In this document: positions 4,215 to 43,367 of the stretch, piece by piece
Layout of the letters: every line of letters starts with the position of its first letter
How positions within the stretch are numbered: the first letter of the stretch is position 1
Source: Tenericutes bacterium RIFOXYA12_FULL_35_10
Lineage (GTDB): Bacteria > Bacillota_I > Bacilli_A > Acholeplasmatales > Acholeplasmataceae
Assembly (NCBI GenBank): GCA_001830045.1
Contig: MIDA01000043.1
Location: 1-49,202, forward strand
Length of the DNA: 49,202 nt
Direction: 5' to 3'
Program-made: the position numbers and the translations under genes
The notes under the pieces: generated by a model
The model's database searches: none
What the model saw: only the letters and a program-made list of their open reading frames with translations
Told to the model about the DNA's origin: nothing

Positions 4215-5138
4215 TTACTGCTCTACTCTAATATCCATTTGATAAGGAAGTGATTTCAGTTTGGTTCTACTGATAATTAAATAGAGAATTCCTAAAGCTA
4301 CGAAGACGACAGACATCAAGATATTGATTGGTAATCCCATAAACATCAAGGCATCTCCATATGCTCCATTGACACGCATCGGTTCAATAATCAAACCACG
4401 ACCAATACCATACCAAATCAAATACAATCCTAAGTTTTCCCCAACTTTTAACTTTCGACTTTTTTTTGCAACGATTAGTGTAATTAATAATGCTAAATTC
4501 CATAATCCTTCATATAAAAATGTTGGATGGTGAACTACATCACCTAATGTCATCTGTTCTTTAATAAAATTAGGTAAAATGTTCAAAATAAACTGAGACT
4601 CTATCGCAGGTCCATATGCCTCATGATTCATAAAATTGCCGAAACGTCCAATAATCTGACCAATTAAAAACCCCATCACTAGTATATCAAGTATTGGTAA
4701 TAGTTTAATTTTTTTGATTTTACAAAATACGGGGACAAAAATCAATGTTGTAATGATTGCTCCATGTATAGCTAAACCACCCTTTGATATGTTAATCACA
4801 TCTAAAAAGTTATTATAGTGTGGTAGTGGATCAAAAATAACATAATAAAGCCTTGCTCCTAATATCGCAAGAGGTAGACCAATAAGAATACCATCATAAA
4901 TTAAATCTTTAGAATAACCAATATCTTTCATTTCTAAGCTACTGTGATAAGCAGCTAAAATAACACCCGTTAGGATGAAAACAGCATACCAGTAGATTTT
5001 TACTACGCCAAAATCAATAAATGTTTTTGAATATGGAACACCTGTTTGACTACCAATTGCAAAAATCAAAACTATGATAAATACATGGAACATTACCATA
5101 TAACGATGCGTTGATAAGTGATTATGATGTGTGTGCAT
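4215..5138 (-). CDS. lgt: Prolipoprotein diacylglyceryl transferase
   Basis: A 307-residue multi-pass membrane enzyme that transfers diacylglyceryl from phosphatidylglycerol to the lipobox Cys of prolipoproteins. The Lgt signature GRFGNFMNHEAYG is present, with HGA and the late IGRGLIIEPMRVNGAYG region. The N-terminus has a short His-rich tail (MHTHHNHLSTH) before the first helix. ATG 5138 has AAGGA 8 bases upstream and overlaps the copA 3' end by 17 bases, so translation is probably coupled. Its place in a copper operon is unusual and suggests lipoprotein maturation linked to this cluster, or a second Lgt. Recognisable lipoproteins in the window are at 14261-15304 and 27833-34693. Confidence 0.92.
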   Translation of the reverse strand: MHTHHNHLSTHRYMVMFHVFIIVLIFAIGSQTGVPYSKTFIDFGVVKIYWYAVFILTGVILAAYHSSLEMKDIGYSKDLIYDGILIGLPLAILGARLYYVIFDPLPHYNNFLDVINISKGGLAIHGAIITTLIFVPVFCKIKKIKLLPILDILVMGFLIGQIIGRFGNFMNHEAYGPAIESQFILNILPNFIKEQMTLGDVVHHPTFLYEGLWNLALLITLIVAKKSRKLKVGENLGLYLIWYGIGRGLIIEPMRVNGAYGDALMFMGLPINILMSVVFVALGILYLIISRTKLKSLPYQMDIRVEQ

Positions 5139-7605: not shown

Positions 7606-7609
7606 GTTG

Positions 7610-7837
7610 TTATTCCTCATTCAGTGTTGTAAGATACTCAACTTGATAACCGGTTTGAACGATAGCATTTAAATATAGATTTTCATCTGGATTTTCCTCT
7701 TCTGTTAGCACTTTTGCAATATGTGTAGAAAAATCAATATCTACGTCAATTGCCCCAATAGATTTTAATGCACTTGTAATGCGATTAATGCACCCAATGC
7801 AATTAATGTCTCCAATTCTATAAATAAGTGTTGCCAT
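7610..7837 (-). CDS. copZ: CopZ-like HMA-domain copper chaperone
   Basis: A 75-residue single HMA domain with the metal site INCIGCIN (CxxC). The order beta-alpha-beta is visible, with IDVDIDFSTHIAKV as the second strand region. The motif DINCIGC replaces the usual GMTCxxC, so it is a divergent member. It is the first gene of copZ-copA-lgt, with AGGAGG upstream and a strong promoter carrying a CsoR operator. It likely delivers Cu(I) to CopA. A detached extra HMA domain serving CopA is an equivalent description. Confidence 0.85.
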   Translation of the reverse strand: MATLIYRIGDINCIGCINRITSALKSIGAIDVDIDFSTHIAKVLTEEENPDENLYLNAIVQTGYQVEYLTTLNEE

Positions 7838-27832: not shown

Positions 27833-30800
27833 CTACCATTCATACACGTAAGCATATAAACCTTGCATCATGTGATACTCAGTATTTTGACCAACAATCA
27901 TCACTTGGTTCTCGATACTTACAAACATTTCTTCAACACCGATTAAATTGATATTGACATGATAAACGTTTGGCGTTGCTGTTGTTTCAATCGAATAATA
28001 AGTAAGTTCACCACCAAATGCATTCATGATTTGGATGATATCTTGAAGTTCAATAAGACTGATTTCATAGAGGAATCCGATATCAAAACCCATATTTGTA
28101 ACATTTGTGATGTATCCTTCATTGAAGATTTTAGGTGAATCTTCTACTAAAATGCGCATCATACCACCAACATGAACACCATCACCCATAACTTCTACCA
28201 TTAAGTAGTAACCTACATCACTCATTGTTGTAACGTATACTGAGTTGGTTGCTCCAACAATGATAGTTTCTTCAAATGTATATGGATTAATACGATACCA
28301 TTGTAAGCTATAACCACCTGTGATGGGTTGACCCATCAAATCATAAATTGAAATATCACCAAGTTCCATCCGGTAACCAACAAATGGATACATCGGACCA
28401 TCCATATCCATACTCATATCCAAATAATAACCTGCAAATCGTGTATCGATATCGGTATAGTTAAAGCTTACTTCATTTGACACAAGTCCCGTATCTGTAA
28501 CAAGACGCATTGTCATGCCACCGCTCATTACTAAACTAAAATTATCATAATATGATCTGATTGGACCTTCGTAATCTTCAATATAAACCCAACTTGATGA
28601 AAGTGAATCATAATATTGAATCATATAATATTCAACACCAAGATCAAAGGGGTATGGGAAATAAAGATCAACAACCATTTCATCTCCACCCATATAACTC
28701 GTTTGTCTTTCTACTTTATGGATGTAAAGACCTGCAAACTCACCTACTGGTGTCACACCAGGTGCCATAGGAAGTGCACCTGCTGAACCAGGAATAAACA
28801 TCGGTTCATAGGGTTCGTATGGATTTACATGAACCAACACTGGAATCACATCGGATTCCATACCATAAGTCACTGTGACATAAACTGTGACATCATAAGG
28901 ATTCATATTTGATGCGAAATGAATGATATGATCAATAATACTTGCTTTATCGGCTTCTAACGAATCAATAGCAAACGCATATGTTCCACCATAAATGGGG
29001 TGAACGACTTCATATGAATAACTCATACCATCTTTGTAGTTTACATTGATACGACTCGAGATATAGTTCTTCATGATATTGACAATATCAAGATCAGTAT
29101 AAACCACTTCCTGAATAAAGTTTGTTTGGTAAGATACATAAACCGACCACATATAGCCCAAAGTTGTCCACGTTTTTTCATATGGGAAAAAACGGATAGA
29201 AACATCTTTATCGATATTGGCATTTAAAGCACCATGGACAGACGGATTAACATCAAAAAGTATAATTGTATGAAGTCCATCTGTTAAGAAATAACTATCT
29301 GAGAAATCATCAAAGATCAAACGACCATTTACTGTATAGTAGTAAAGCGAATGATCCATATTCGGGTCTAATCCAGCAATAAGATCCAAGCTACTTTCAG
29401 AAACTATCAAAGCTTCAGTTGATACTGAACTTATAACCTGTTGATTAGAACGATCATCATAACCATATATCAATGCAATTCCATCTACTGTAAATTTAGG
29501 ACCAAAAAGCAAGACATCATTACCAACTGTAAGTCCTTCAAAACCATAGGCATAGAGATAAACATCACTACCCGATTCTTGTAAAATGACTTCATAATAA
29601 CTGAGCACATCAACAACCACACCACTCACTTTACCCAAATCATTATCATTTATTGCCATAAATTCAGCAAACGTTAAAGTGGGATAAGGTGCAACCGTTA
29701 AATTAAATGTATGATTTTCAGTTAATCCACCAATGGTAATGGTCGCAGTAATCTGAATGATTTGTTGACTTACCACTTCATGGAAAATCATGGTTGATGT
29801 GTCAATAACAGCACTCACATCGCCAACAAATGCCCATGAAAGGTTCGCATTAAGTACTTGAATAACATCCGGTAATTCGAGTTGTTCACCTGGTCTAAAT
29901 TCTTTACCTTCTAACTTATATTGTCCAAGTAAAACAAGTGCATCCATCTTTTCACGATCCGTATCATAATCAAGGACCATATCAACATCACTTGCTACCA
30001 TGAGTAAACGATCTGGAGCATAAGGATCTTCCTCATTAAACGATGGGAACAAGAAAGCTCTAACAACCAATCTAAAACCATCATATTGGTAAAGCATTTC
30101 TGGATCTGGGAAAATACTTGATTGATAAATATAAACTGGAACAAGAGGTATAAACTCTGGAGACTCAAGCTCTGGTCTTAAAAGTGGATAATATGAATCT
30201 TTAAGATATGCCATATATCCAGTTACTTCAATGTATCGACCCCAGTTTGAAACATCATTCATATCAATTGCATTCAACTGTGTGATTGTCATCACTTCTG
30301 GTGTGAGTGGATTAGGTAAACCCATGGATACCTTTTCAACTAAAAATGTCGTTTCATAATCCCACATCAATTTAAGACCCATTTCCAAGGTAACAATACC
30401 TTGAACAATGATTTCATCACCCAGTTGTACAGGAAGTTGTTTCACAATAAACATATAACCTGTTTCATCTGCAATGATGATGGGTCCATCACCAAATTGC
30501 TGCATCACCACAACACCACGAACCACGAATTCATCGTTTTCAGCACCTGCTAAAAACTCTGCAATCGTTGATGTTGCAATCGGTTCGACAATGAGATCAA
30601 ATTCTGCAATAGAAACTTCGACACCAACTGTTATGGTAGCTTTAATTTGAATCAATGTTTGTGTCGTGATTGTATCTGAAATAACACCAGTTGCTAAATC
30701 ATATAACCCTGCATTAACGCCTAAAACTTCATATACGACCGATACGTCATACGTTCCATACGTTGTTGGTAATATATAGGTTGCTCCCGGACGTAAAACT

Positions 30801-33800
30801 TTGTAAAGATGTTCTTCTTCTAGTTTATTTGCGAGATAAACTACAAGTTCAGCATCTGTAAATCTTGGATTGATATCATCGCCTTGATTTAAATAAATAA
30901 CGACGATCATACCTTCAGGACCTTGATGCATCCATAAACCTTTAATTCTGACTTCTTGTCCTACATAACTATTTAAGACAGTTAAATCATCGAACTCAAT
31001 CGTAAATATATAGACTGCATCTTCTGAATCATTAGTCACAAAGTATATTTCATTCATGCCATCTTTCACTAAGGTACCCATGATTTCAACATAAGATAAA
31101 GCAACCATTGGATCTTGAGGTCCTAGAGCATAGATTTCATCAACTGTATAAAGTGTTGGTACTAAAGGAATGTCTTGACCATGTGCAATAACTTGTTGAA
31201 CAATGTCTGATGGATTGTTAGCAATAATGATCATTTCTTCAGCAACCATACGCATACCGTATAAAACCACTTCATCCCCAACCATTAAGTCAGGCATATC
31301 AATGCTTGCCATAATCACACCTGTATCATCTGCAATAATCGCCATCTTTTCTTCATGATCAATATACATGATGACACCTTGAATGTAATACATATTGCTA
31401 TCAGTCATGTGTAGGAAATCATAAATACTTGTTGTTGTTATTGGAATCACATGAAGTTCAATCACAACTTGTTGTGTTGCCAAACCATAGGTCAAGGTTG
31501 CATGTATCGTAATGTATGTTTCAACACTAATGCTTGGATCAATAACCCAAAGATCAGAAACCAAAGCATCATCGAGTGCATCAACGGTATATGAAACTGT
31601 TAAAGCAAACGTTGGATGTTCTGTAGGTAACATCAATGTTTGACCTGGAACAACTGTTTCGCCTTCAAGGTATCCTTTTAACATCAGAGCAAACAAATCA
31701 GCTAATTCTTGATCTGTATAATCTAAGATGATATCACCTTCAGCACCGATAAAGATAAACATCATGAAAGGTTCATCATCGAAATTAGGTAAACCAAATC
31801 CACGGAGTCCCACTTCAAAACCATCAAATGGAATCAATTGTTCGTAAACATCCATACCAAAGACCATGATTGGCATAATATCGACAGCATCTTCTAAATA
31901 GAACATATGAGATACTTCATCCCATGTGAGCGTACCCATAACTTCATAATAGCGACCCCAATAAAGGGTGTTCATTGTATCTAATGTATTGAACTGACCA
32001 ATCGTTAAAGGAATTGCAGTTAACGGGTTAGGAAGTCCTGTTTCTAAAGTAGCAACGATACTATCTTCCATACCAGCCATGATGGTTAAGCCCATCATAT
32101 TCACTTTATACCCGTGAACGTGTACACGTGTTCCAACATCAAGATAATCATCGGTTTCAATCGCTAAAATAGCTCCTGTTTCATCAGCGATAATCATCAA
32201 TTTCATGTCAAAAGAACTTAAAATAACAATACCTTCAACAACACCATAGGCTTGATCATCTAAAAGTCCAAATTCAGTGATTGAAAGCACAGTTGTTGGC
32301 ATCAACGTAATCGTTACATCCACTTCACCAACAATACTATTGATGGTTACAGTAATATGAATTACAATGTCACGTTCAATGATTGTTTCTAAAAATTCTC
32401 CTGAAGATGGGTTGAAATAACTTGCATTTTCCCCTGTTGTAATAAATGATAAACCAGCACCATATACAGGTTCTACTGATGGTAATTCAAGTTTTTGATG
32501 ACTGTAAAAGACTTTGCCATCAAGTTCATTAACCGCAAAAGCAATTAATTCATCAACTTTTTGTTGTTCTGATAAATTAACAATTTCTGCAGGCATGACT
32601 GGATCATAAACGACATGCCACATCTGCTTCATCGGATCAAATCCATGAACAAATGCACGCATCTTAAAGCGGTATCCAGCATAACCGTTAAACGGATTAT
32701 TCATTGGATCAATCGATTTATAGTTAATTGCAACACCATTTTCACTACCTGGTTCTACAAGGAAATATTGACCCATGTCCTCATATAAGACACCTTCAAT
32801 GATCACTGGCATACCCATCATTGAAATATCTGATGGGTTAGAGCGACTAATCGATGAGATCGAAATATCAGTATGTGTCACTGTATCTGGTGTACCAGAA
32901 ACAACCATTCTATTTGTTTGATTAGTAAGTTGTGGTACATATTCAAAGAAACTAAAATCAGCTTCAAATGAATAAATAGTTCCTAAAGTGACATCTGCTG
33001 GTGCTAAAACAAAGATGATTCCTGTACCATCTGTGATGTAATAACCCGGTTGCCCCATTGGGAATTTATAGACGACTGTACCTTCAACTTTAACATGGCC
33101 TGGTTGATAGAGTAGGATATCAGCAATCGACCATACAGCATCAACAGCAACCCATTTCGCATAAAGCGTAATGGCATTTGCTGGCATTGCTTGGTCGGTT
33201 AACTGCTCTGTTAAACTACTATCTGTGTACCATCCAGCAAATGTATAACCTTCTTTGGTCGGATCTTGTGGAACAGGGATTTCCATTTGATAGATTGCTT
33301 CTACTGGATCAATCGTTGTGCCACCATTCGTTTGATAGGTTACAGCATATGTAGCCAAAGCCCATTTTGCATAGAGTGTAAGATCACTTTCTGGCATGGT
33401 TGTCTGTTCAAATGCATTTAGATAGTATTGGTCTATAAACCATCCTTCGAATGTATAACCAGTCTTAACTGGAGTCGGTAAAGTGATTGGATCAAAGGCT
33501 TTAACATTTTGAGGATTAATGCCTTCTACACTGAGATATGTAATCGTATATGTTTCATAATCCCATTTTGCATAAAGGGTTGTGTTTGCAGATGGCATTG
33601 TTGCAAATGTATATGCTGTAGTTAATGCAATATCACTATACCATCCAATAAAGACCATTCCTTCTTTGGTTGGATTAGTAGGAACTACAACCGCAGTTCC
33701 AAATGCTTGTGTGATATCAGTAACAACACTTCCACCATTTTCTTCGAAGGTAATCGTATAATTATTGATTGTCCATTTTGCATAAAGGGTTGTGTTTGCT

Positions 33801-34693
33801 GATGGCATGGTTGTAAATGTATATGCTGTAGTTAATGCTACATCTGTATACCATCCACCAAATGTGTTACCTTCTTTGGTTGGTTCAGTCGGTGCGGTAA
33901 CTGTTGTTGCAAAAGCTTGAGTGATATCATTCACTACGCTTCCTCCATTTTCTTCAAATGAAATCGTGTAGTTATTCACTGTCCATTTGGCATAAAGGGT
34001 TAATGCAGTACTTGGCATGACAGTGAATGTATATGCTGTTACAAGCGTTGCATCCGTATACCATCCACCAAACGTGTAACCTTCTTTCGTTGGATGTATA
34101 GGTGCAGTCACCACACTTCCAATCGTTTGTGTGATATTGGCTACTGCACTTCCTCCATTTTCTTCAAATGTTATTGTTTGTTCAGTTATGACAGCTACCC
34201 ATTTTGCATAAACTGTGACATTTGCTGCAGGCATCGTTGCAAATGTAAATACAGTCGTTAGTGCTTCATCGGCATACCAACCACCAAAAGTATATCCCTC
34301 TTTGGTAGGATCAGTTGGAGCAGTGATCGTTGCTCCTGCGGGATGTGTTTCTGAACTGATGGATGTTCCTCCATTTGTTTGATACGTAAGAGAAAACATT
34401 TCAACATCTTCAATCCATTTTGCATAAAGAGTTAATGCTCCACTTTGGGTGAGCAGTGACGCTAATGTAAATGGTTGAGTCAACTCAGCATCCAAAAACC
34501 ATCCATCAAACGTATAACCTTCACGTGTTGGATCGGGTAATTGAACACTTGTAGAATTAATCGATATCTCGATATCTTCTAATTCAATACCACCGTTTTC
34601 TTCAAAGGACACTTTAACATTTTGTGTCCCTGTACATGAGGCGATACCAATGGAAAGGAATAAAAAAGCCAAAATCATTAAAAATTTTCGCAT
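27833..34693 (-). CDS. Giant modular surface lipoprotein with InlB-type repeats
   Basis: A 2286-residue lipoprotein (lipobox IASC, Cys20). Residues ~28-515 hold seven InlB B-type (Listeria-Bacteroides/Flg_new) repeats, each with ENGG or TNGG, EGYTFxGWY and YAKW. From ~520 there are about five repeating modules. Each begins with an OB-fold-like segment (such as SIADIL...VKVEGTVVY..., SITEF...GVVEGIV, SIYDF, TIAEF, TFAEF) with an ADETG-type motif, then an Ig-like segment with PGxxLxLP. The last ~350 residues form a distinct Gly/Tyr/Met-rich region. No sortase motif is present, so the lipid is the only visible anchor. Adhesion or carbohydrate/protein binding is likely (inference). It has its own ribosome binding site (AGGAGG) and terminator. 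Confidence 0.88.
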   Translation of the reverse strand: MRKFLMILAFLFLSIGIASCTGTQNVKVSFEENGGIELEDIEISINSTSVQLPDPTREGYTFDGWFLDAELTQPFTLASLLTQSGALTLYAKWIEDVEMFSLTYQTNGGTSISSETHPAGATITAPTDPTKEGYTFGGWYADEALTTVFTFATMPAANVTVYAKWVAVITEQTITFEENGGSAVANITQTIGSVVTAPIHPTKEGYTFGGWYTDATLVTAYTFTVMPSTALTLYAKWTVNNYTISFEENGGSVVNDITQAFATTVTAPTEPTKEGNTFGGWYTDVALTTAYTFTTMPSANTTLYAKWTINNYTITFEENGGSVVTDITQAFGTAVVVPTNPTKEGMVFIGWYSDIALTTAYTFATMPSANTTLYAKWDYETYTITYLSVEGINPQNVKAFDPITLPTPVKTGYTFEGWFIDQYYLNAFEQTTMPESDLTLYAKWALATYAVTYQTNGGTTIDPVEAIYQMEIPVPQDPTKEGYTFAGWYTDSSLTEQLTDQAMPANAITLYAKWVAVDAVWSIADILLYQPGHVKVEGTVVYKFPMGQPGYYITDGTGIIFVLAPADVTLGTIYSFEADFSFFEYVPQLTNQTNRMVVSGTPDTVTHTDISISSISRSNPSDISMMGMPVIIEGVLYEDMGQYFLVEPGSENGVAINYKSIDPMNNPFNGYAGYRFKMRAFVHGFDPMKQMWHVVYDPVMPAEIVNLSEQQKVDELIAFAVNELDGKVFYSHQKLELPSVEPVYGAGLSFITTGENASYFNPSSGEFLETIIERDIVIHITVTINSIVGEVDVTITLMPTTVLSITEFGLLDDQAYGVVEGIVILSSFDMKLMIIADETGAILAIETDDYLDVGTRVHVHGYKVNMMGLTIMAGMEDSIVATLETGLPNPLTAIPLTIGQFNTLDTMNTLYWGRYYEVMGTLTWDEVSHMFYLEDAVDIMPIMVFGMDVYEQLIPFDGFEVGLRGFGLPNFDDEPFMMFIFIGAEGDIILDYTDQELADLFALMLKGYLEGETVVPGQTLMLPTEHPTFALTVSYTVDALDDALVSDLWVIDPSISVETYITIHATLTYGLATQQVVIELHVIPITTTSIYDFLHMTDSNMYYIQGVIMYIDHEEKMAIIADDTGVIMASIDMPDLMVGDEVVLYGMRMVAEEMIIIANNPSDIVQQVIAHGQDIPLVPTLYTVDEIYALGPQDPMVALSYVEIMGTLVKDGMNEIYFVTNDSEDAVYIFTIEFDDLTVLNSYVGQEVRIKGLWMHQGPEGMIVVIYLNQGDDINPRFTDAELVVYLANKLEEEHLYKVLRPGATYILPTTYGTYDVSVVYEVLGVNAGLYDLATGVISDTITTQTLIQIKATITVGVEVSIAEFDLIVEPIATSTIAEFLAGAENDEFVVRGVVVMQQFGDGPIIIADETGYMFIVKQLPVQLGDEIIVQGIVTLEMGLKLMWDYETTFLVEKVSMGLPNPLTPEVMTITQLNAIDMNDVSNWGRYIEVTGYMAYLKDSYYPLLRPELESPEFIPLVPVYIYQSSIFPDPEMLYQYDGFRLVVRAFLFPSFNEEDPYAPDRLLMVASDVDMVLDYDTDREKMDALVLLGQYKLEGKEFRPGEQLELPDVIQVLNANLSWAFVGDVSAVIDTSTMIFHEVVSQQIIQITATITIGGLTENHTFNLTVAPYPTLTFAEFMAINDNDLGKVSGVVVDVLSYYEVILQESGSDVYLYAYGFEGLTVGNDVLLFGPKFTVDGIALIYGYDDRSNQQVISSVSTEALIVSESSLDLIAGLDPNMDHSLYYYTVNGRLIFDDFSDSYFLTDGLHTIILFDVNPSVHGALNANIDKDVSIRFFPYEKTWTTLGYMWSVYVSYQTNFIQEVVYTDLDIVNIMKNYISSRINVNYKDGMSYSYEVVHPIYGGTYAFAIDSLEADKASIIDHIIHFASNMNPYDVTVYVTVTYGMESDVIPVLVHVNPYEPYEPMFIPGSAGALPMAPGVTPVGEFAGLYIHKVERQTSYMGGDEMVVDLYFPYPFDLGVEYYMIQYYDSLSSSWVYIEDYEGPIRSYYDNFSLVMSGGMTMRLVTDTGLVSNEVSFNYTDIDTRFAGYYLDMSMDMDGPMYPFVGYRMELGDISIYDLMGQPITGGYSLQWYRINPYTFEETIIVGATNSVYVTTMSDVGYYLMVEVMGDGVHVGGMMRILVEDSPKIFNEGYITNVTNMGFDIGFLYEISLIELQDIIQIMNAFGGELTYYSIETTATPNVYHVNINLIGVEEMFVSIENQVMIVGQNTEYHMMQGLYAYVYEW
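33149..34612 (-). repeat. Seven tandem InlB B-type repeat units in DNA
   Basis: About 200-bp units, several nearly identical at DNA level (CATTTTGCATAAAGGGTT recurs), encoding the seven YAKW-ending repeats. Units 3-5 are the closest and look recently duplicated; the first and last two are more diverged. Confidence 0.88.
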
Positions 34694-34734: not shown

Positions 34735-34761
34735 CGCAACCAGAGATTTCCTCAGGTTGCG
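34735..34761 (-). terminator. Terminator at the end of the crt-photolyase operon
   Basis: CGCAACC (34735-34741) pairs with GGTTGCG (34755-34761), with inner GAG/CTC pairing, and a T-run follows on the minus strand. Confidence 0.85.
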
Positions 34762-34845: not shown

Positions 34846-36225
34846 TCATCTATACTCATTCATACGTGATACATAGCTTTGAATATCAAATTTTCGCTCT
34901 AAACCGCCTGCATTCATGTATCTAAGTTTACCAAAAATATCTCTTTCAGTCCAAGCACGATCATGCTTACCAAAACACCATGCAATACCTGCATACGAAT
35001 TTGCATCTCTACCATCAATGAAATACGTATTATTCAAAGACTTTATCATCTCATATGCATAAACATAATTTGGACTCCACTCAATGATTTTTTTAGCCCA
35101 ATACATCCGCATATAATTATGCATATAACCGGTCAAAACCATCTCTTTCATGGCCGCGTTAAAATAAGGATCGTGCGTTTTAAAAGATATATAATCTTCT
35201 TTTGTATAAAGATAGGGTCTAAAATCATGCTCATGTGATGTCATCGTTTGATATGCCCAAGGTTCTGTCATACTTTCAAATTGATCATAGCCTTTTTGAT
35301 AGGTAACATAGTTAAATGCGAGTTCGCGTCTGACTAATAATTGTTCAACATACTGATCAAAGGATTCACCTTTAATTTGGCCCTGAGCTTGTGCTAAAAA
35401 GAGACGATCAAGAAGTTCTAAACTTGAGATTTGACCAAAATGAAGATACAATGACATTTTAGAAGTTAAATCTTTCGATGGATCATTACTCAAGTCATAA
35501 TCAGAAGCTTTCTCTGAGATAAACATTGAAAAAAGACGACTAGCTTCTATATAACCACCGTGATAAAGTGGTGAACCTTTAACAGAGTGATCAATATCAA
35601 GAACGTTAACCAATTTTTTTATATCGATCAGATTATGGTCAGAAGGAATATTTAAAATCTTTTGATTCCAAACAACCGTTAATGTCTTAAAATCTCGAAA
35701 ATCTCGAAACATTTTCGTGATTTTAGGTCTTAACGTATATGCACCATATTCTGCTTTATCAGAGACAACTCTCACTGGAACAATCAAATCTGTATCAATC
35801 AAATCTATACCCAATGTTTGATATTTCTCTTTGGAAACATCAAGCACATGCTTTCGCCACATCTTCTGATGTCTTAAATACCCATAATCCATCACTAGAA
35901 ATGCAGCATCTTGAAGAAGTGGTTGAATACTTTCTTCTGGTGAACCAAACCGAAATACAAAAGTCATCCCTAACTTTTCAATCCAGGTTTTCACATCTTT
36001 TAATCCCTCAAGCATAAAAAGATAATGTCTTTCATTAGCTTCAGGATACGTTGGGGTTAATCCAAAAAAAACGACAACTGGCAAATCATGTTGATTAGCC
36101 AGTTCAATAGCATGCAAAAGTGCATGGTTATAATGAACGCGCTGAGATTGCTGCATCCAATATAAAATGTATGTCCCAGACTCATTAAATCCAGGTTTTA
36201 AATGATTTATTCTTCGTTCGTTCAT
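34846..36225 (-). CDS. phr: Class II CPD photolyase
   Basis: A 459-residue light-driven DNA repair enzyme that splits cyclobutane pyrimidine dimers using reduced FAD. Class II features are clear: YILYWMQQSQRVHYNHALLHAIELAN near the N-terminus, and in the FAD domain GYMHNYMRMYWAKKIIEWSP, NNTYFIDGRDANSYAGIAWCFGKHDRAW. I start at ATG 36225, one base after the stop of the DUF92 gene; no good Shine-Dalgarno sequence is seen, so it probably depends on translational coupling. A TTG at 36243 would add six residues. Last gene of the crtI operon. Confidence 0.95.
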   Translation of the reverse strand: MNERRINHLKPGFNESGTYILYWMQQSQRVHYNHALLHAIELANQHDLPVVVFFGLTPTYPEANERHYLFMLEGLKDVKTWIEKLGMTFVFRFGSPEESIQPLLQDAAFLVMDYGYLRHQKMWRKHVLDVSKEKYQTLGIDLIDTDLIVPVRVVSDKAEYGAYTLRPKITKMFRDFRDFKTLTVVWNQKILNIPSDHNLIDIKKLVNVLDIDHSVKGSPLYHGGYIEASRLFSMFISEKASDYDLSNDPSKDLTSKMSLYLHFGQISSLELLDRLFLAQAQGQIKGESFDQYVEQLLVRRELAFNYVTYQKGYDQFESMTEPWAYQTMTSHEHDFRPYLYTKEDYISFKTHDPYFNAAMKEMVLTGYMHNYMRMYWAKKIIEWSPNYVYAYEMIKSLNNTYFIDGRDANSYAGIAWCFGKHDRAWTERDIFGKLRYMNAGGLERKFDIQSYVSRMNEYR

Positions 36226-36226
36226 C

Positions 36227-37015
36227 TTAGATAAAGAAAACAAGTGTAATTAAGGATGCCGCTAAACCTGATAATAAGTTCACTGCATCATTGGTAATCA
36301 AAGCAAGCCCAGATGCTAAAACCACTTTTTCATTAGGTAGCCATCTTTTCTCTGTATAGGTACCCGTTTCAACACCACGATATTTTGCTTGAATCAAACC
36401 ACCTAAATAAGAATCTATCAAATTACCTAAAAAGCCACAAATCGTAATAATACCACCAAACATCAGAAAATCATCAAACCCTAAACCATACTGAATGGCA
36501 TATAAACCGATAAAAACGCCTGCAATAAAGAAAGCTCCAATAAAGGATGCAAACGTACCTAAACCAGAAATCGCACCTGAAACACCTTTGGGTGCAATTT
36601 TAAAATTTAAAATATAAAATGTTTTACCTTTCGATAAAGATCCTATTTCAGATGCCCATGTATCTGAATTGGAAGTCGCAATCGAAACAACTGCAGCAAG
36701 CAAAAATATTTCAGCTTGAAGTATATAATATACGATAGAGAAAATAGCTGCAACCAATCCATTAGCTAAAACTTGCACATAATTTCTTCCCTTACTAACC
36801 TTCTTTTCACTCTTTTCAGAGATTTTTGTAATAAGTGATGATGAAATAAAGAAAGCGATTAATGAACCCCATACAAGAAAGCCACCAAACATATAGATGA
36901 TGGTACCTAAAAGAATGGCAGTAACCATACCACTGACATTAAGCGATTTTTTCAAATATGCCAAGAACGCAACTATAAAACTGATAAGTAAACCAATGAT
37001 GGCATCTAAAAACAT
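36227..37015 (-). CDS. DUF92/VTE6-like membrane protein (prenyl-phosphate kinase candidate)
   Basis: A 262-residue, ~7-helix protein with the DUF92 signature SNSDTWASEIGSLSKGKTF...PKGVSGAISGLGT and NLIDSYLGG. The plant homologue VTE6 phosphorylates phytyl monophosphate to phytyl diphosphate. It follows a VTE5-like kinase by 18 bases and overlaps the photolyase translation start, with GAGGTG upstream. In this operon the pair could convert geranylgeraniol (or phytol) to the diphosphate used by the phytoene synthase two genes upstream. Substrate is inferred from context; the family also occurs in bacteria without tocopherols. Confidence 0.85.
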   Translation of the reverse strand: MFLDAIIGLLISFIVAFLAYLKKSLNVSGMVTAILLGTIIYMFGGFLVWGSLIAFFISSSLITKISEKSEKKVSKGRNYVQVLANGLVAAIFSIVYYILQAEIFLLAAVVSIATSNSDTWASEIGSLSKGKTFYILNFKIAPKGVSGAISGLGTFASFIGAFFIAGVFIGLYAIQYGLGFDDFLMFGGIITICGFLGNLIDSYLGGLIQAKYRGVETGTYTEKRWLPNEKVVLASGLALITNDAVNLLSGLAASLITLVFFI

Positions 37016-37033
37016 TTAATTCACCTCAACTGT

Positions 37034-37699
37034 TTATAGGATAAGCAAGAGTAAATAGAAAATAAGAGATGATCCCAGAGGTACAGACAAATTATCTAAA
37101 CCTTTAGGTGTAAAGAGTTCAATTAAAGTCGCAAATGCTGCAACACCCATAGCAAGTAACAACGAAATCAAAACAGATTGTGTAAACATGGAAATGGCAA
37201 ACACCACAACAAATGAAGTGATAAACATCGTTAAAGACCCTTCTAATGATTTACCAAAAGCAAGTTTCTTTTTACCATACTTTTTACCAATCACTGCAGC
37301 TAATCCATCACCATAACCCATAACAAGAATACCGACAGCACCGATAAATGGATTATCTAAAACGCCAAATGTTAATGCGACTAAAATAAGTAGTGAAATC
37401 GGAAAATAGACCGTTCCTAAATTCCCTTGACCACCACGTTCCATGGCTTTCAAAAGATTTAAACGATAGGATAAATAATTCAAAATAATAAAGGTAAAAG
37501 GTGCAATTATGGCATACCATACAGCATCATCACCTTTGAAAAAAAACATTGCTAAAATCCACCAATTGGAAACACCAATATGAATGAACTTACGAGCACC
37601 CTCATCTCCCACAATATTTTTCTTTTGTAAAACAGTCGAAATCCCAATAATCAGGAAAATTAAAACATACGATCCCACTAATCCCCATACATTAAGCAT
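37034..37699 (-). CDS. VTE5/dolichol-kinase-like membrane kinase
   Basis: A 221-residue, ~6-helix protein of the phytol/dolichol kinase (CTP-using, SEC59/VTE5-related) family. Diagnostic parts are GDEGARKFIHIGVSNWW and MGYGDGLAAVIGKKYGKKKLAFGKSLEGSLTMF. Family members phosphorylate prenyl alcohols, and related ones are phosphatidate cytidylyltransferases. It follows crtB by 10 bases with GAGGT before ATG 37699. With the DUF92 gene it gives alcohol to monophosphate to diphosphate, which would feed carotenoid synthesis (inference). Confidence 0.85.
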   Translation of the reverse strand: MLNVWGLVGSYVLIFLIIGISTVLQKKNIVGDEGARKFIHIGVSNWWILAMFFFKGDDAVWYAIIAPFTFIILNYLSYRLNLLKAMERGGQGNLGTVYFPISLLILVALTFGVLDNPFIGAVGILVMGYGDGLAAVIGKKYGKKKLAFGKSLEGSLTMFITSFVVVFAISMFTQSVLISLLLAMGVAAFATLIELFTPKGLDNLSVPLGSSLIFYLLLLIL

Positions 37700-37709
37700 G
37701 ACATTTACC

Positions 37710-38639
37710 TCACTTCATTGATTTTAAAAACGATTGTATAAGTTCATTCTTCTTATCTTCACTGACAAAATTCTTCTTTGTGAAAACATCATAATTTGAT
37801 TCTCTGCACGCATCTATAATCCCACGATATAAAACAATGGATAAACCTAAGGGTAATTTCACATCATCTGGAAAAAGTTTTAGATCATCAAGTGCTTGCT
37901 CATAATAACCTTCAGCTTTCTTTGCGAAAGACTCAAACATATTTATAAATTCTATGTTTATCTTACCATGATGCAAATCATCTTTTGAATAATTTGCTTT
38001 TCTAAATGCATCCTCAGGAAGATAAATTCTTCCATTTCTTTCGTCTTCTCCAATGTCTCTTAAAATATTGGTGATTTGCATGGCATAACCTAAGTTAACT
38101 GCGAATGCATCTAACTCTTTATCATGTGTTTCAGACAATATAGGTAGTAACATTAAACCTACAGTTCCAGCAACATCATAACAATATTCAAGTAACTCTT
38201 TTTCAGTTTGATATCCTTTAAAATCTAAATCCATACGTTGACCTTTTATCATGTCAAAATAGGGTTTATAATCATAATTTTTGGGGTAATAATGAGAGGT
38301 TGTTTGTTTTAAAGCTCGAAATCTAAAACTTTGAGGTTTTTCACCTTGAATGTAATGTTTCAATTCCTCTTCTAAAGCATTTAATCCGGTTTCATCTTGA
38401 TCTTCATCAATTAAATCATCTGCATACCTGCAAAATGCATAAACAGCATATACCGCTTCTCTTTTTCTTCTGTTTGTTATTTTCGAAAAGGCTTTATAAA
38501 AGGTGAGTGAATTTTTTTTAATTATCTCTTCACATGCCTTGATATCTTTTCTACGATTCAATAAATCAATTACAAAGAAAAAGTTAACTAATGTTACAAT
38601 ACAAATTAATACAAGTCTTATAATTTCAAGTGGTGTCAT
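37710..38639 (-). CDS. crtB: Phytoene (or diapophytoene) synthase with an N-terminal membrane helix
   Basis: A 309-residue squalene/phytoene synthase that joins two prenyl diphosphates head to head. The first Asp-rich motif is DDLIDE in AFCRYADDLIDE, the second is in NILRDIGEDERNGRIYLPED. Residues ~5-27 form a hydrophobic helix not usual in this family, suggesting membrane tethering. It overlaps the crtI stop in an ATGA arrangement. C40 versus C30 product cannot be told from sequence; the adjacent VTE5/VTE6-like genes argue for GGPP and C40 phytoene. Confidence 0.92.
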   Translation of the reverse strand: MTPLEIIRLVLICIVTLVNFFFVIDLLNRRKDIKACEEIIKKNSLTFYKAFSKITNRRKREAVYAVYAFCRYADDLIDEDQDETGLNALEEELKHYIQGEKPQSFRFRALKQTTSHYYPKNYDYKPYFDMIKGQRMDLDFKGYQTEKELLEYCYDVAGTVGLMLLPILSETHDKELDAFAVNLGYAMQITNILRDIGEDERNGRIYLPEDAFRKANYSKDDLHHGKINIEFINMFESFAKKAEGYYEQALDDLKLFPDDVKLPLGLSIVLYRGIIDACRESNYDVFTKKNFVSEDKKNELIQSFLKSMK

Positions 38640-40120
38640 ACATGGTCCCTCATTATTTCATTTGCTACAATCTTAGCACTCATTAAGACAATCGGAACAC
38701 CTGCTCCAGGATGATTGCTTGAACCCACAAAATAAAGGTTTTTAACCTGTTTCATGGTTGCCTGAGGTCTAAAGTATAAACTTTGGAAAAAGGATGGCTG
38801 AAGGCCAAAAGTGGCTCCAAATTGAAGGTTAAATAAATCTCTAAATGTTTCAGGTGTAAAAATCTTTTCATATATGATATGTGACTCAATATCTTCAAAT
38901 CCCTTGATATATTTAATCCGACCTAAGATTTGTCTTCTTAAATTTTGAATAGCATCATTATTCCAAACGAGTTTCGTTTGATGAAGCGATGGAACTGGTA
39001 CTAATACATATAAAACTTCACACCCATCTGGTGCTAAATCTAAATCAATTTGTGTTGGCGAATATAAATAATAGGATGGATCTTCTGGAATGACTCCTTC
39101 AAAAAGTTGATCGATGTTCTTCTTGAAATCTTTTGCAAAATGAATTTGATGTACCGTTGTTTGATATTTCTTACTTAAGCCAAAGTACATGATAAATGCG
39201 GATGATGAATATTTCATGCGATCAATCTTTTGATCACTATATTTCCCTTTGTTTTTTCTTTCTTTAATCAAGTTCTTCATCGCCCAAGGAAAATCAGCGT
39301 TGGATAAGACAATATCTGATGGAATCAATTGTTCAGATACTTTAATGCCTTTGGCAATCCCTTTTTCAATGACAATCTCACTGACTGTTCGATTCAAATG
39401 AATCTTTCCGCCTAATTCTAAAAATCTTCTTTCCATCGCTTTTGCCATCTGATACATACCACCTTTGATGTACCATACACCAAATAGTAACTCAATCATT
39501 GGGATAATCGTGTAAATCGATGGTCCAGAAAATGGAGAGACACCCACATAAAGTGTTTGAAAACTTAAGGCTTTTCTCAGTTTATCTTCTTTAACAAATG
39601 ACGAAATGGATTGATAGGCATTGTTTAATGTTCTAAGTTTAGCCAGTTGATGAAACGTTTTGAAATTATAAAATTCGGATGGCTTCCGATAAGATATATC
39701 TAAAAATACATTTTTTGCTCTGACGTAACGGTCATAAACGTCTGCTAAATATGCTAAATACCCTGCAGTTTCTTTTTCTGAAAAAGATTCAAGTTGTGAT
39801 ATAAACTGAGGTAAGTTTGAAGAAATCTGTAAAGCCATACTATCGGGATAATGAATGGTATTCATCGGTTCGAGTAATTGCATTTGGATGTAATCCTCTG
39901 ATTTTACACCACTCATTTCAAATAACTCTTGATACATTTTAGGCATGAGAACAATCGTAGGACCTACATCAAAGGTAAATCCCTGTTCTTTTATTTGATA
40001 CATCCGTCCCCCGACAGCTTCGTTTTTCTCATAAATCTCACATTGAAATCCTTGAGACTGCAGTCTAATGCCCGCTGCTAAACCAGATGTACCTGCACCG
40101 ATGATACTGATTTTTTTCAT
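38636..40120 (-). CDS. crtI: Phytoene desaturase-family carotenoid oxidoreductase
   Basis: A 494-residue FAD enzyme. The N-terminal Rossmann motif is ISIIGAGTSGLAAGIRLQSQGFQCEIYEKN...GGRMYQ, and the C-terminal family signature is YFVGSSNHPGAGVPIVLMSAKIVA. These proteins introduce conjugated double bonds in phytoene or its C30 analogue. I start at ATG 40120, with GAGG 8 bases upstream; a TTG at 40141 overlaps that site. First gene of the five-gene operon crtI-crtB-VTE5-like-VTE6-like-phr, divergent from heliorhodopsin. Confidence 0.93.
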   Translation of the reverse strand: MKKISIIGAGTSGLAAGIRLQSQGFQCEIYEKNEAVGGRMYQIKEQGFTFDVGPTIVLMPKMYQELFEMSGVKSEDYIQMQLLEPMNTIHYPDSMALQISSNLPQFISQLESFSEKETAGYLAYLADVYDRYVRAKNVFLDISYRKPSEFYNFKTFHQLAKLRTLNNAYQSISSFVKEDKLRKALSFQTLYVGVSPFSGPSIYTIIPMIELLFGVWYIKGGMYQMAKAMERRFLELGGKIHLNRTVSEIVIEKGIAKGIKVSEQLIPSDIVLSNADFPWAMKNLIKERKNKGKYSDQKIDRMKYSSSAFIMYFGLSKKYQTTVHQIHFAKDFKKNIDQLFEGVIPEDPSYYLYSPTQIDLDLAPDGCEVLYVLVPVPSLHQTKLVWNNDAIQNLRRQILGRIKYIKGFEDIESHIIYEKIFTPETFRDLFNLQFGATFGLQPSFFQSLYFRPQATMKQVKNLYFVGSSNHPGAGVPIVLMSAKIVANEIMRDHV

Positions 40121-40155
40121 GTCTTTGACCTCGTTTTTCAAGATGTCTTGTTGAT

Positions 40156-40164
40156 ATTATACCA
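40156..40164 (-). promoter_or_regulatory. Extended -10 promoter of the crtI operon
   Basis: TGGTATAAT on the minus strand (40164-40156), no clear -35. Nearby are TTATCATTT twice (40180-40188, 40225-40233) and CATTTGTTGAAATG (40184-40197), possible regulator sites shared with the divergent heliorhodopsin promoter. Confidence 0.55.
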
Positions 40165-40289
40165 TTAAGAAAGTATGAGTTATCATTTGTTGAAATGAAG
40201 AACTTACAAAAACAATCCGTTGACTTATCATTTCATTAAATTAGTTCATATTTCAAAGTATTTAATTACCTTTTATCTCATATTTGTAA

Positions 40290-40295
40290 TATAAT
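40290..40295 (+). promoter_or_regulatory. -10 element of the heliorhodopsin gene
   Basis: TATAAT, 27 bases before the ATG at 40322, with GGAGAT as ribosome binding site. The -35 region is weak, which leaves room for an activator. Confidence 0.5.
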
Positions 40296-40321
40296 CAAGG
40301 TATAAAAAGGAGATATTAAAC

Positions 40322-41119
40322 ATGGACAATACGAAATTTGTAAAATTAAGAAAGTTTAACATGATTATGGGAGCATTCCATTTAGTACAAGGTCTGCTCA
40401 TGGTTATTTTTGCGATCACCGTTTTAGGTGATATCAACCCTGCATTTAGCATTACCATCACACAAAATTTCTTAAACTTTGATGTGGTAGAACAACGTTT
40501 ATTTTTAGATCAAAAGGATCTCTTTGAACTTCCTTTTGGAATTTTAGTGGGTGTCTTCTTACTTCTATCAGCAGGAGCTCATGCCTTAATCTCATTTCCT
40601 AAAAAGATTAATGACATGTATAACCGTGATTTACAAAAAGGCATTAACAAACTCAGATGGTTTGAATATGCACTATCATCATCAGTGATGATCGTCTTAA
40701 TCGCAACCCTCTTCGGTATTTATGATATCGCATCACTCACCGTCATCTTTATTGCAAATGCTGCAATGAACCTCTTCGGTCTTGATATGGAAATTATCAA
40801 CTCTAAACGTGCTGAAAGTGAAAAAGTAAACTGGGGTCCATTCATTTGGGGATCTTTAGCGGGTATCGCACCTTGGATCGCGATAATTTTATATATGGTT
40901 GGTTCAGGTAATGTTACTCCTCCATGGTTTGTTTGGGCAATTATTGCAACCTATTTCGTCGCATTTAACACATTCCCCATTAACATGGTGTTACAATATA
41001 AGAAAGTAGGCAAATGGAAAGATTATCTTTATGGTGAAAGAACGTATATCATCTTAAGTTTAGTTGCTAAATCCATTCTTGCATGGCTCGTATTATTTGG
41101 AGCTCTTCAACCTGCTTAA
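40322..41119 (+). CDS. Heliorhodopsin (retinal-binding photoreceptor)
   Basis: A 265-residue seven-helix protein. Family landmarks: FNMIMGAFHLVQG in helix 1 (H20), SAGAHAL (H87), LRWFEYALSSSVMIVLIATL with the presumed Schiff-base counterion E115, and YIILSLVAKSILAW with the retinal-binding Lys K250. These correspond to H23, H80, E107 and K241 of the first described heliorhodopsin. Heliorhodopsins have inverted topology and slow photocycles, and are thought to signal rather than pump. It is divergent from crtI and photolyase. No lycopene cyclase or carotene cleavage gene is in this window, so the retinal source lies elsewhere or outside the cell. Confidence 0.95.
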   Translation: MDNTKFVKLRKFNMIMGAFHLVQGLLMVIFAITVLGDINPAFSITITQNFLNFDVVEQRLFLDQKDLFELPFGILVGVFLLLSAGAHALISFPKKINDMYNRDLQKGINKLRWFEYALSSSVMIVLIATLFGIYDIASLTVIFIANAAMNLFGLDMEIINSKRAESEKVNWGPFIWGSLAGIAPWIAIILYMVGSGNVTPPWFVWAIIATYFVAFNTFPINMVLQYKKVGKWKDYLYGERTYIILSLVAKSILAWLVLFGALQPA

Positions 41120-41129
41120 CAAATCCATC

Positions 41130-41154
41130 GCTAGGCGTAAAAACCTAGCTTTTT
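41130..41154 (+). terminator. Terminator or attenuator after heliorhodopsin
   Basis: GCTAGG (41130-41135) pairs with CCTAGC (41144-41149), followed by TTTTTCTTT. It directly precedes the ribosome binding site of the next gene, so partial read-through is possible. Confidence 0.7.
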
Positions 41155-41169
41155 CTTTAAGGTGATAAC

Positions 41170-42144
41170 ATGTATCTAAAAAAGTTGATTCATCCAGAAT
41201 TTTATCAAGGACATAAAAAGAAGAAAAACTATTTTGAAGGTTGGTATTATAAACTCGTCAGTTTTGATGAGCACTATACGATTGCACTCATTCCAGGTGT
41301 AAGTAAGAATGAAAAAGACCCTCACGCTTTTATTCAACTCTTCGTCTCTGAAACGAAACACGAACATGTCAAACTACAGACCTTTTATTTTCGTTACGAT
41401 TTAACTGAGTTTCTTTTTAGTCATGATCGTTTTAACGTTCAAATTGGACCTAATTACTTTTCTAAAGAAAAACTTCATATCAATCTTAAAAATGATAAAA
41501 TTCATCTCTATGGAACATTACAAATCAAAGATATAACACCCATCAAAAAGAAGCTTCTCATGCCAAATATCATGGGCTTTTTTGGATACTTCAATTTTAT
41601 GGAATGTTACCATGGCGTTGTCAGTATGAACCATACGTTTGAAGGATCACTTCAATACAATCAAACCATCATTAACTTTGATCATGCCAAAGGATATATT
41701 GAAAAAGACTGGGGTAAATCATTTCCTAGAGCTTATGTATGGATACAATCAAATCATTTTAAAAACCCTCAAACATCCATCATGTTCTCCTATGCAGATA
41801 TTCCATTCTTAGGTTTCTATTTTAAAGGATTAATTGCAAACCTTCATGTAGATGGAAAAGAATATCGGTTCGCAACGTACAATTTTGCAAAAGTAAAAAA
41901 AGAAGTGATCGAACCAAAGAAAGTCTTTTATACACTAAAAAAAGGACAATATACGTTAGAAATTACCGCAGAATCTGAAACAGAAACCTCATTAGCTTCA
42001 CCACGAAATGGTCAAATGATTGAATCCATCAAAGAGGGGTTATCTGGTCGGGTATCCATAAAACTCTTTAAACATCAAAAACTCATTTATGAAGATTGTG
42101 GTCATCATGCGGGTATCGAAATTATGAAACCACATCACTTTTAA
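41170..42144 (+). CDS. Tocopherol cyclase (VTE1)-family protein
   Basis: A 324-residue lipocalin-like protein with the tocopherol cyclase family pattern: HPEFYQG...KKKNYFEGWYYKLVSFDEHYTIALIPGVS, HAFIQLFV, IMGFFGYFNFMECYHGVVSMNH and KGYIEKDWGKSFPRAYVWIQSNHF. In plants and cyanobacteria VTE1 closes the chromanol ring of tocopherols. Bacteria outside that group have homologues of unknown function, and no tocopherol head-group genes are seen here, so a related cyclic or lipophilic isoprenoid is more likely than vitamin E. ATG 41170 has AAGGTGATAAC upstream. It follows heliorhodopsin by 50 bases across a hairpin. Confidence 0.88.
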   Translation: MYLKKLIHPEFYQGHKKKKNYFEGWYYKLVSFDEHYTIALIPGVSKNEKDPHAFIQLFVSETKHEHVKLQTFYFRYDLTEFLFSHDRFNVQIGPNYFSKEKLHINLKNDKIHLYGTLQIKDITPIKKKLLMPNIMGFFGYFNFMECYHGVVSMNHTFEGSLQYNQTIINFDHAKGYIEKDWGKSFPRAYVWIQSNHFKNPQTSIMFSYADIPFLGFYFKGLIANLHVDGKEYRFATYNFAKVKKEVIEPKKVFYTLKKGQYTLEITAESETETSLASPRNGQMIESIKEGLSGRVSIKLFKHQKLIYEDCGHHAGIEIMKPHHF

Positions 42145-42185
42145 TTTTTTATTCATTTTGATACACTCATACTTGAGGTGAAACA

Positions 42186-43367
42186 ATGAACGAACATCAA
42201 CACGTATCTTGGAAAACATTTTTAAAAGATGTCTTAATTTGTTCTTTGGGTGCTTATGGTGGACCTGAAGCGCATTATGGTGTTTTCACAGATCAAATGA
42301 TTACCAAAAAACATTATCTGACTGAAGAAGAGTTAACTGAACTCATTGCTTTAACTGCAATCGTCCCTGGTCCAAGTAGTACACAGACCATTGTAGCAAT
42401 CGGTTATAAAGTAGGTGGACCATGGTTAGCGCTATTAACGATGATTGTATGGGCACTGCCCGTTGTTATCTTAATGACCGCATTATCATTTATGTATCAA
42501 ATCCTTGAGAGATTTAATGTGGGCAGCGAGGGATTAAGATTAATCGCCCCCATGGCAGTTGGATTTATCTTTATTGCTGCATTTCGCATCGGAAAAAAAG
42601 TCGTCAAAGACCTATTAACGCTTTTAATCTTTTTAGTTGCTGGTATTACGACTTACTTTTTTAGATTTGCATGGGTGTTTCCACTCCTACTTTTTCTCGG
42701 TGGTTTAACTTATGTTTTTCTTTCAAAAGAAAAAGATTTGTGGCATAAGATAACCATCAAACCCCCATATCGTTATTTAATTGCCTTTTTCGTACTGTTG
42801 GTCTTATCACTTGTTTTACTCTTTGCAGTCAATCATCCGACAATCTTTTTATTTGAACGTTTCTTCCAATACGGTTATCTCATTATCGGTGGCGGTCAGG
42901 TGGTTGTCCCCTATATGTTTACGGATCTTGTAGAAACGTATGGTTTTATGACAAGCCAAGAATTTTTAACTGGATTTGGATTAGTTCAAGGTTTGCCTGG
43001 TCCCATGTTTAGCTTCTCGGCTTATGCAGGTGGTATGGCAACACGATCTTTATCACCATTCTTACAAGCATTCACCGGAATCTTAAGTGCGATTGCTATT
43101 TTTACACCAGGTATCCTACTTATTTATTTTATCTATCCCATATGGATTCAACTGAAAACCATCAAAGGCATTAGGGTTGCGATTAAAGGTATTACGGTGG
43201 TTGCTGCTGGATTGATTGCATCTGCAGGTGTTGTTCTTTTAAGAGAAAGCGGATTCGGACTTGAGAATGTGATCGTTTTAATCCTAACTTCAATTCTTTT
43301 ACTCACAAAGAAGATTCCTGCACCACTCATTGTTTTACTTGTCATCGTCATCGGTTTTATCCTCTAA
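42186..43367 (+). CDS. chrA: ChrA-family chromate transporter
   Basis: A 393-residue two-half chromate transporter-family membrane protein (~10-12 helices). The N-terminal half has GAYGGPEAHYGVFTDQMI and ALTAIVPGPSSTQTIVAIGYKVGG; the C-terminal half repeats the pattern with IGGGQVVVPYM and FGLVQGLPGPMFSFSAYAGG. Characterised members export chromate; many homologues have untested substrates. ATG 42186 has GAGGTG upstream, 41 bases after the tocopherol-cyclase-like gene, so it may be co-transcribed with heliorhodopsin. Its link to the light genes is unclear. Confidence 0.9.
   Translation: MNEHQHVSWKTFLKDVLICSLGAYGGPEAHYGVFTDQMITKKHYLTEEELTELIALTAIVPGPSSTQTIVAIGYKVGGPWLALLTMIVWALPVVILMTALSFMYQILERFNVGSEGLRLIAPMAVGFIFIAAFRIGKKVVKDLLTLLIFLVAGITTYFFRFAWVFPLLLFLGGLTYVFLSKEKDLWHKITIKPPYRYLIAFFVLLVLSLVLLFAVNHPTIFLFERFFQYGYLIIGGGQVVVPYMFTDLVETYGFMTSQEFLTGFGLVQGLPGPMFSFSAYAGGMATRSLSPFLQAFTGILSAIAIFTPGILLIYFIYPIWIQLKTIKGIRVAIKGITVVAAGLIASAGVVLLRESGFGLENVIVLILTSILLLTKKIPAPLIVLLVIVIGFIL

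Follow-up and report, generated by a model that had tools for sequence, protein, structure and literature searches.

A mosaic heliorhodopsin island in the Acholeplasmatales with photolyase, carotenoid and tocopherol-cyclase-family genes

The stretch of DNA analysed here (the window) is a complete contig of 49,202 nucleotides (MIDA01000043.1; C43 in our numbering) from the 2.05-Mb draft genome, 93.8% complete, of Tenericutes bacterium RIFOXYA12_FULL_35_10, a member of the Acholeplasmatales. Two divergent gene runs within it form the island that concerns us: on the plus strand, a heliorhodopsin (HeR) gene, a gene of the tocopherol-cyclase family (VTE1) and a chromate-transporter gene; on the minus strand, crtI, crtB, a VTE5-like gene, a DUF92 gene and a photolyase gene (phr). 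We read this as a photoprotection island of exchangeable sub-units, namely carotenoid synthesis that would be fed by salvage, a photolyase, a HeR that would dock on it, and VTE1; this is a reading to which we give an even chance. The features are these:

34735 to 34761, minus strand: terminator-like hairpin and T run 3' of phr, from the sequence
34846 to 36243, minus strand: phr, class II-type cyclobutane pyrimidine dimer (CPD) photolyase, 465 amino acids, TTG start, last gene of the minus-strand unit
36227 to 37015, minus strand: DUF92 (VTE6-like), predicted isoprenyl-phosphate kinase, from PF01940 (210.6 bits)
37034 to 37699, minus strand: VTE5-like predicted isoprenol kinase, 8 predicted helices, from its RK..H motif and gene context
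37710 to 38639, minus strand: crtB, phytoene or dehydrosqualene synthase (C40 or C30), from profiles and structure relatives
38636 to 40141, minus strand: crtI-family carotenoid desaturase, TTG start, from profiles
40142 to 40321, no strand: putative divergent control region, 180 bases, from resemblance only
40322 to 41119, plus strand: HeR, 265 amino acids, from PF18761 and NF038020
41130 to 41149, plus strand: terminator-like hairpin and T run between HeR and VTE1, with a counterpart in each of 23 spacers of the order
41170 to 42144, plus strand: VTE1-like protein of the tocopherol-cyclase family, 324 amino acids, AttH/pericyclase fold, from PF14249 and the fold of its model
42186 to 43367, plus strand: chromate-transporter family protein, from PF02417 and TIGR00937

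All named genes are open frames, and the two divergent units that an earlier note had read from the sequence are borne out by these frames together with Pfam and NCBIfam matches. The span it gave, 34846-43367, holds for the genes it named, but the chromate-transporter gene inside that span went unnamed. Its gaps of -4 to +18 bases are correct for crtB/crtI (-4), VTE5/crtB (+10) and DUF92/VTE5 (+18), but the overlap of phr with DUF92 (-17) was missed and HeR and VTE1 are +50 bases apart (VTE1 and the chromate transporter, +41). The HeR residues that the note picked out (H20, H87, E115 and K250) are all there and do not vary across an alignment of 113 HeR rows, in which some genes are entered twice; we take K250 to be the retinal lysine, E115 the counterion, and H20 and H87 the conserved histidines. 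Its class II label for the photolyase rests on the best-matching model, TIGR00591, and on solved relatives such as 2xry, and is qualified by a score under the NCBIfam cut-off; its VTE5-like label is carried by the RK..H motif and gene context, with nothing from the databases at E 0.01.

The HeR scores 315.6 bits against PF18761 (cut-off 26.7) and 299.9 bits against NF038020 (cut-off 100). The photolyase matches DNA_photolyase (PF00875) at 72 bits, above the cut-off, and reaches 440.3 bits with TIGR00591 (phr2), whose cut-off of 550 is passed in none of the 101 genomes surveyed below. Its nearest solved relatives, 2xry (E 4e-86) and 3umv (E 1e-72), align over nearly the full length and are, we take it, class II enzymes; judged by this model and these relatives, the photolyase is of class II type. 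VTE1 matches Tocopherol_cycl (PF14249) at 75.4 bits (cut-off 26.6); all 32 of the aligned family members match the profile too, with E values of 1 or less. Its structural model shares the AttH/pericyclase/hydratase fold over the whole chain, and no CrtC structure is among the structures that it matches.

The spacer between HeR and VTE1 has a feature of its own. All 23 tandem HeR-VTE1 spacers of the order contain a hairpin with a stem of 6-11 base pairs and a T-rich stretch behind it, against 0.32 expected by shuffling; among 23 control stretches from the end of the HeR coding sequence, one does; the search rule was written after hairpins had been seen. The stems differ in sequence, and with 14-32 bases from the stem to the start of VTE1, a promoter of its own could not fit after the hairpin. 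The hairpin is absent from a Clostridia spacer (L041) outside the 23 and, as far as is visible, from an inverted VTE1-HeR pair (G055). We infer that it acts as an attenuator, keeping VTE1 below HeR.

Our survey covers 101 genomes of the same order, that of the window included; a weak HeR match (G089) was dropped before counting, and the counts are not corrected for kinship. HeR is above its cut-off in 37 genomes; VTE1 is present in 41, phr2 in 41 (at E 0.001), crtB in 24 and DUF92 in 23. Among the 37 genomes with HeR, 34 carry a class II-type photolyase and 32 a member of the VTE1 family. In locus maps, counted by hand and with some islands cut by contig ends, HeR and VTE1 adjoin each other in 24 of the 37 and phr belongs to the island in 24 (directly divergent from HeR in 11, with other island genes between in 13), while crtI-crtB and VTE5-DUF92 are each found in 9. 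The full set occurs in five of the 101 genomes: our own (G000), G011, G017, G039 and G002, where HeR is split in two. HeR, VTE1 and phr are often seen with crtI and crtB missing, or with the kinases missing. Since the full set is confined to few genomes and its sub-units vary in the locus maps, the island is a mosaic, with HeR, VTE1 and phr its steadiest parts. VTE1 also heads a crtI-crtB-VTE5-DUF92 unit with no HeR between (G067, G072, G082 and G090), and adjoins crtB in G001 and G012 and phr in G052; The company of VTE1 thus includes carotenoid genes and not HeR alone. G055 has the inverted order, VTE1 then HeR, in other surroundings. Within three genera (g4, g10 and g11), the listed members that lack HeR also lack phr.

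We also examined 80 named HeR loci, several of them, to judge by length, on the same contigs as genomes of the survey. The nearest are from Acholeplasmataceae metagenome-assembled genomes (MAGs). A photolyase gene is present at 19 of the 80, or at 20 if a distant one in L064 is counted. In an Erysipelotrichaceae locus (L085), HeR lies 3.5 kb beyond the end of a crtB-VTE5-DUF92 unit, from which a crtI diverges, and is itself followed by a further crtI-family gene; this arrangement recurs, whole or in parts, in L084, L086, L089 and L091. An island of genus g9 (L136) adds a second photolyase, a photolyase-related DPRP protein, DUF2177 and DUF1295. The check that the earlier note had proposed, conserved linkage in relatives, is answered positively: the linkage is found again among relatives, in G055 with the order inverted, and it involves different HeR lineages. 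Its single light-response module was too strong a claim, given a full set in 5 of 101 genomes and sub-units that are often apart; its reading of light protection gains from the extra photolyase-family genes of the g9 island, though not as one unified module.

The two extra photolyase-family genes of the g9 island lie at L136:11349-14176, and two similar frames are seen by eye at L131:1432-4250. Another, very divergent HeR, about 47% identical to that of the window, is present in L130, L132, L133, L134, L135 and L137 with no full island beside it; in L134 a 52-residue crtI-like stretch lies 6 kb from it.

The composition of the minus-strand unit raises the question of where its isoprenoid precursors come from. 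CrtI scores 437 bits against TIGR02734 (cut-off 238) and CrtB 210.3 bits against SQS_PSY, above the Pfam cut-off. With the best C40 equivalog model, NF045686, CrtB reaches 194.1 bits against a required 550, and its nearest structures are phytoene synthase and CrtM. The DUF92 protein, which we take to belong to the VTE6 family, matches PF01940 (cut-off 27.5) and falls below the cut-off of TIGR00297 (117.2 against 205.85 bits). The VTE5-like protein has no Pfam or NCBIfam match at E 0.01; PF01148 comes up weakly (E 0.017), with matches in 4 of the 25 aligned members, and the fold match is weak, but R36, K37 and H40 (RK..H) are invariant in all 25, and this motif and the gene context point to a VTE5-like kinase. 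Profile searches among solved structures with the VTE5 and VTE1 alignments gave nothing useful. (Here and below, published work is cited from excerpts of the papers.) The R-K-x-x-H spacing is that of a charged clamp reported for a malaria prenol kinase (PMC10849223).

PF00348, the profile of farnesyl and geranylgeranyl diphosphate synthases, matches in 14 of 14 controls and in only 6 of the 101 genomes, all six with crtB and one of them G055; it is undetected in the other 95, including the 93.8%-complete genome of the window. The 24 genomes with crtB divide into 16 with DUF92 but no PF00348 match, four with the reverse, two with both and two with neither, so that 22 of 24 have one or the other. 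The two with neither are G001, where VTE5 lies at a contig end, and G040, from g9, whose four other crtB members have PF00348. Because the synthase is undetected in 95 genomes and 22 of the 24 carotenoid genomes have either DUF92 or the synthase, the kinase pair probably makes an allylic diphosphate from an isoprenol and feeds CrtB by salvage. That the two kinases replace a prenyl-diphosphate synthase for carotenoid synthesis has, in our estimate, slightly less than an even chance. Geranylgeranyl diphosphate has been reported in cells of Acholeplasma laidlawii (PMC3942410). Of the 24 crtB genomes, 13 lack Dxr (G058, G059 and G090 by elimination).

Heliorhodopsins are known as retinal photosensors; no convincing retinal-making gene is recognised by sequence among the 101 genomes. 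RPE65 and CrtYcd are found in none, and Blh is above its cut-off in none (one weak match, in G011, has internal stops), in a search that matched none of 14 controls and so has no positive control. The cyclase search consisted of PF05834 and CrtYcd. We rejected PF05834 as evidence of lycopene cyclase: of the 49 genomes that match it, 21 above the cut-off, nearly all do so over only the first 36-48 model positions, with one match covering positions 1-140 (G067). The genome of the window itself matches none of PF00348, PF05834, PF18916 and PF15461, so that crtE, lycopene cyclase and Blh of the retinal-making crtE-B-I-Y-blh cluster are not found in it. A bacterium without known retinal genes has nonetheless been reported to hold retinal and a functional rhodopsin (PMC7734400); such carriers are presented in that source as an open question, for which this order offers many cases.

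The HeR phylogeny bears on whether the island reflects more than common descent. The HeRs of g9 islands are nested within a distant lineage, the rest of which is not located near VTE1 or phr, and a single clade for all 25 island HeRs is rejected (p-AU 0.003); the group set against the rest was defined by gene context, but after a first quick tree had been viewed, and the separating branch is long. The VTE1 tree, for its part, keeps g1, g9, g15 and g21 each together. We read this as replacement of HeR in place, with deeply separate HeR lineages coming to occupy the same slot, which speaks against mere shared descent. Exchange of HeR within g1 is suggested, but is not significant without G015: one clade for the 13 g1 island HeRs is rejected with this sequence, whose island lies on a 6.3-kb contig (p-AU 0.0003), but stands once it is removed (p-AU 0.11). 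Our reading leans on the deeper split of g9 from the rest. A large part of the surrounding synteny is inherited: FeoAB-like, GGDEF-like and arginine-deiminase-like genes (by eye) recur in members of g1, g8 and g15, and g9 has pyruvate-dehydrogenase-like and agmatinase-like genes in common.

Taken together, these observations suggest the following scheme for a photoprotection island of exchangeable sub-units. The VTE5-like and DUF92 membrane kinases, which would stand in for the undetected trans-prenyl-diphosphate synthase, would add two phosphates in turn to an isoprenol, geranylgeraniol or farnesol, that is taken up from the surroundings or released by breakdown. CrtB would join two of the resulting diphosphates and CrtI desaturate the product to an acyclic carotenoid. 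The photolyase would repair UV damage, and HeR would, most likely, dock on it and tune it by analogy with TfHeR of Trichococcus. VTE1 would probably act on one end of a prenyl or polyene chain, by hydration or cyclisation; made through read-through of the terminator, it would be less abundant than HeR. Genes of each run would be co-transcribed, and light may control them.

Several findings weigh against this scheme. D98, R163 and K228 of the HeR correspond to photolyase-contact positions of TfHeR (R163 and K228 align with its R162 and K227), but both of these contact residues are basic in 17 of 19 photolyase-linked Acholeplasmatales HeRs, in 28 of 60 HeRs with no phr in the locus, and in only 1 of 10 Trichococcus-type HeRs, a set that includes the proven pair; we therefore rejected them as proof of binding, being non-specific. 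HeR is broken by a frameshift or stops in three relatives (G002 C14:6947-7709, G051 C36:9729-10227 and G074 C1:1280732-1281283). Photolyase occurs without HeR in seven genomes and VTE1 without HeR in nine. In 17 genomes with both VTE1 and HeR there is no crtB, which means that VTE1 need not act on a carotenoid made by the cell itself, and it stands beside HeR in only 9 of the 80 named loci, one of them the Clostridia MAG (L041), which makes the pairing rare outside the order. DUF92 is found without crtB in five genomes (G003, G007, G008, G014 and G035), where the kinases must have another use, and the genome of the window has Dxr and an adjacent UppS-like frame (by eye), so that a C15 or C20 diphosphate may be made by a different route. 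As a separate observation, HeR and VTE1 are now kept apart by several other genes in G002 (L144).

How do other explanations compare? Carotenoids stand in for sterols in the wall-less acholeplasmas, and crtI, crtB, VTE5 and DUF92 (and VTE1) could serve membrane mechanics, with HeR and photolyase in a separate light role. That the nearest named HeR loci are those of Acholeplasmataceae fits this, as does the placing of the crtI-crtB-VTE5-DUF92 unit away from HeR and phr in G070, G074, G032, G042 and G059. However, 20 of the 24 crtB genomes carry phr, which in members of g1, g8 and g9 is the closing gene of the crt unit and shares its strand, and the g9 island has its two further photolyase-family genes; a module for membrane rigidity is on balance unlikely. 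We hold it more unlikely still that the genes are together by descent only and do not work together. The synteny shared across g1, g8 and g15, and that within g9, does mean that much of the linkage is non-independent, but common descent sits poorly with different HeR lineages in the same slot, with the VTE1-HeR pair of G055 in opposite order and other surroundings, with the pair in the Clostridia MAG, with crt genes near HeR in another order in Erysipelotrichaceae, and with HeR and phr varying together within g4, g10 and g11.

Two further possibilities seem to us improbable. VTE5, VTE6/DUF92 and VTE1 might form a chromanol (vitamin E-like) pathway as in plants, in which a prenyl-quinol would be cyclised to a membrane antioxidant; DUF92 and VTE1 are indeed kept without crtB in G003, G007, G008 and G014, with VTE5 beside DUF92 (in G014 on two contigs), yet 25 of the 41 VTE1 genomes lack DUF92 and 7 of the 23 DUF92 genomes lack VTE1. 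HeR might equally be a relic or a non-photoactive opsin whose role with photolyase, if any, is light-independent: the failure to recognise a route to retinal and the three broken HeR genes speak for this, whereas the invariant retinal lysine, counterion and histidines, and the precedent of retinal in a bacterium without known genes for it, speak against it. Very improbable, finally, is a light response built wholly on scavenged isoprenoids in which the VTE1-like enzyme cyclises or in another way reshapes an acyclic or imported carotenoid into the HeR chromophore or an antenna pigment; if true, it would be a route to a rhodopsin pigment without lycopene cyclase or Blh.

A few other features of the window deserve mention. 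The chromate transporter is not a constant member of the island, though weak homologues (23-24% identical) follow VTE1 in G005, G007, G014 and G016. In the divergent region, a -10-like TATAAT at 40290 precedes HeR and a minus-strand -10-like element faces crtI, both by resemblance only; 14 such regions align poorly (28% mean column identity), and a conserved operator was rejected. A GCAT-like element some 27-29 bases before the HeR -10 is seen by eye in some g1 members and is absent in others, and we make no claim for it. A 2286-residue predicted lipoprotein (27833-34693), whose repeats we take, by eye, to be InlB-like, adjoins phr, with homologous stretches in the same place in same-genus loci such as L031, L032, L035 and L036. 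At 1837-7620 are two P-type ATPase-like frames resembling copper or heavy-metal pumps (by eye), one with a His-rich N-terminus.

The function of HeR is debated; the association described here, which spans separate HeR lineages, links it with photolyase and with a little-studied VTE1-like family, which offers a concrete partner. A carotenoid operon with both kinases and no detected synthase makes the putative salvage pathway testable by pigment colour. In a literature search that had subscription papers and preprints outside its scope, we found no paper joining HeR with tocopherol cyclase or with Acholeplasma, and neither the VTE1 partner with its hairpin nor the kinase pair in place of a synthase. 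The link between HeR and photolyase, with the idea of light protection, is already in print, so that the earlier note's statement of no described system holds for the full set but not for HeR with class II photolyase (PMC9769723) or near carotenoid genes and photolyases (PMC8612252).

Among known systems, TfHeR of Trichococcus binds a class II photolyase with a reported dissociation constant of 21.7 uM (PMC9769723). Our locus resembles it in having HeR and a class II-type photolyase together, and in the basic contact positions. In the excerpted account TfHeR and TfPHR share an operon with DUF2238, whereas here photolyase is in the same island but on the opposite strand, not in one operon with HeR, which is followed by VTE1; DUF2238 has no match among the ten window proteins scanned with Pfam. 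Zinc-finger HeRs of Thermoplasmatales archaea are similarly flanked by carotenoid genes and photolyases, but those loci are listed with lycopene cyclase, UvdE and an N-terminal zinc finger (PMC8612252); in ours no lycopene cyclase is recognised, and VTE5, DUF92 and VTE1 are present. Of ten HeR neighbour groups described elsewhere, photolyase is one and DUF2177, seen in the g9 island, another; as given in the excerpts, the ten include no VTE1-like, crt, VTE5 or DUF92 group (PMC11109279). Compared with CrtC, a carotenoid 1,2-hydratase with reported catalytic residues H239, W241, Y266 and D268 (PMC4717167), and with kievitone hydratase (PMC5805349), VTE1 belongs by sequence to PF14249. The two-kinase logic is that of phytol salvage by VTE5 and VTE6 in plants and cyanobacteria (PMC9782597, PMC10849223), which in 2022 were described as the only organisms with known genes for farnesol and geranylgeraniol salvage (PMC9782597), the malaria prenol kinase having been reported since (PMC10849223). 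Unlike the plant and cyanobacterial kinases, those described here lie inside a carotenoid operon, in a genome where a trans-prenyl-diphosphate synthase is undetected.

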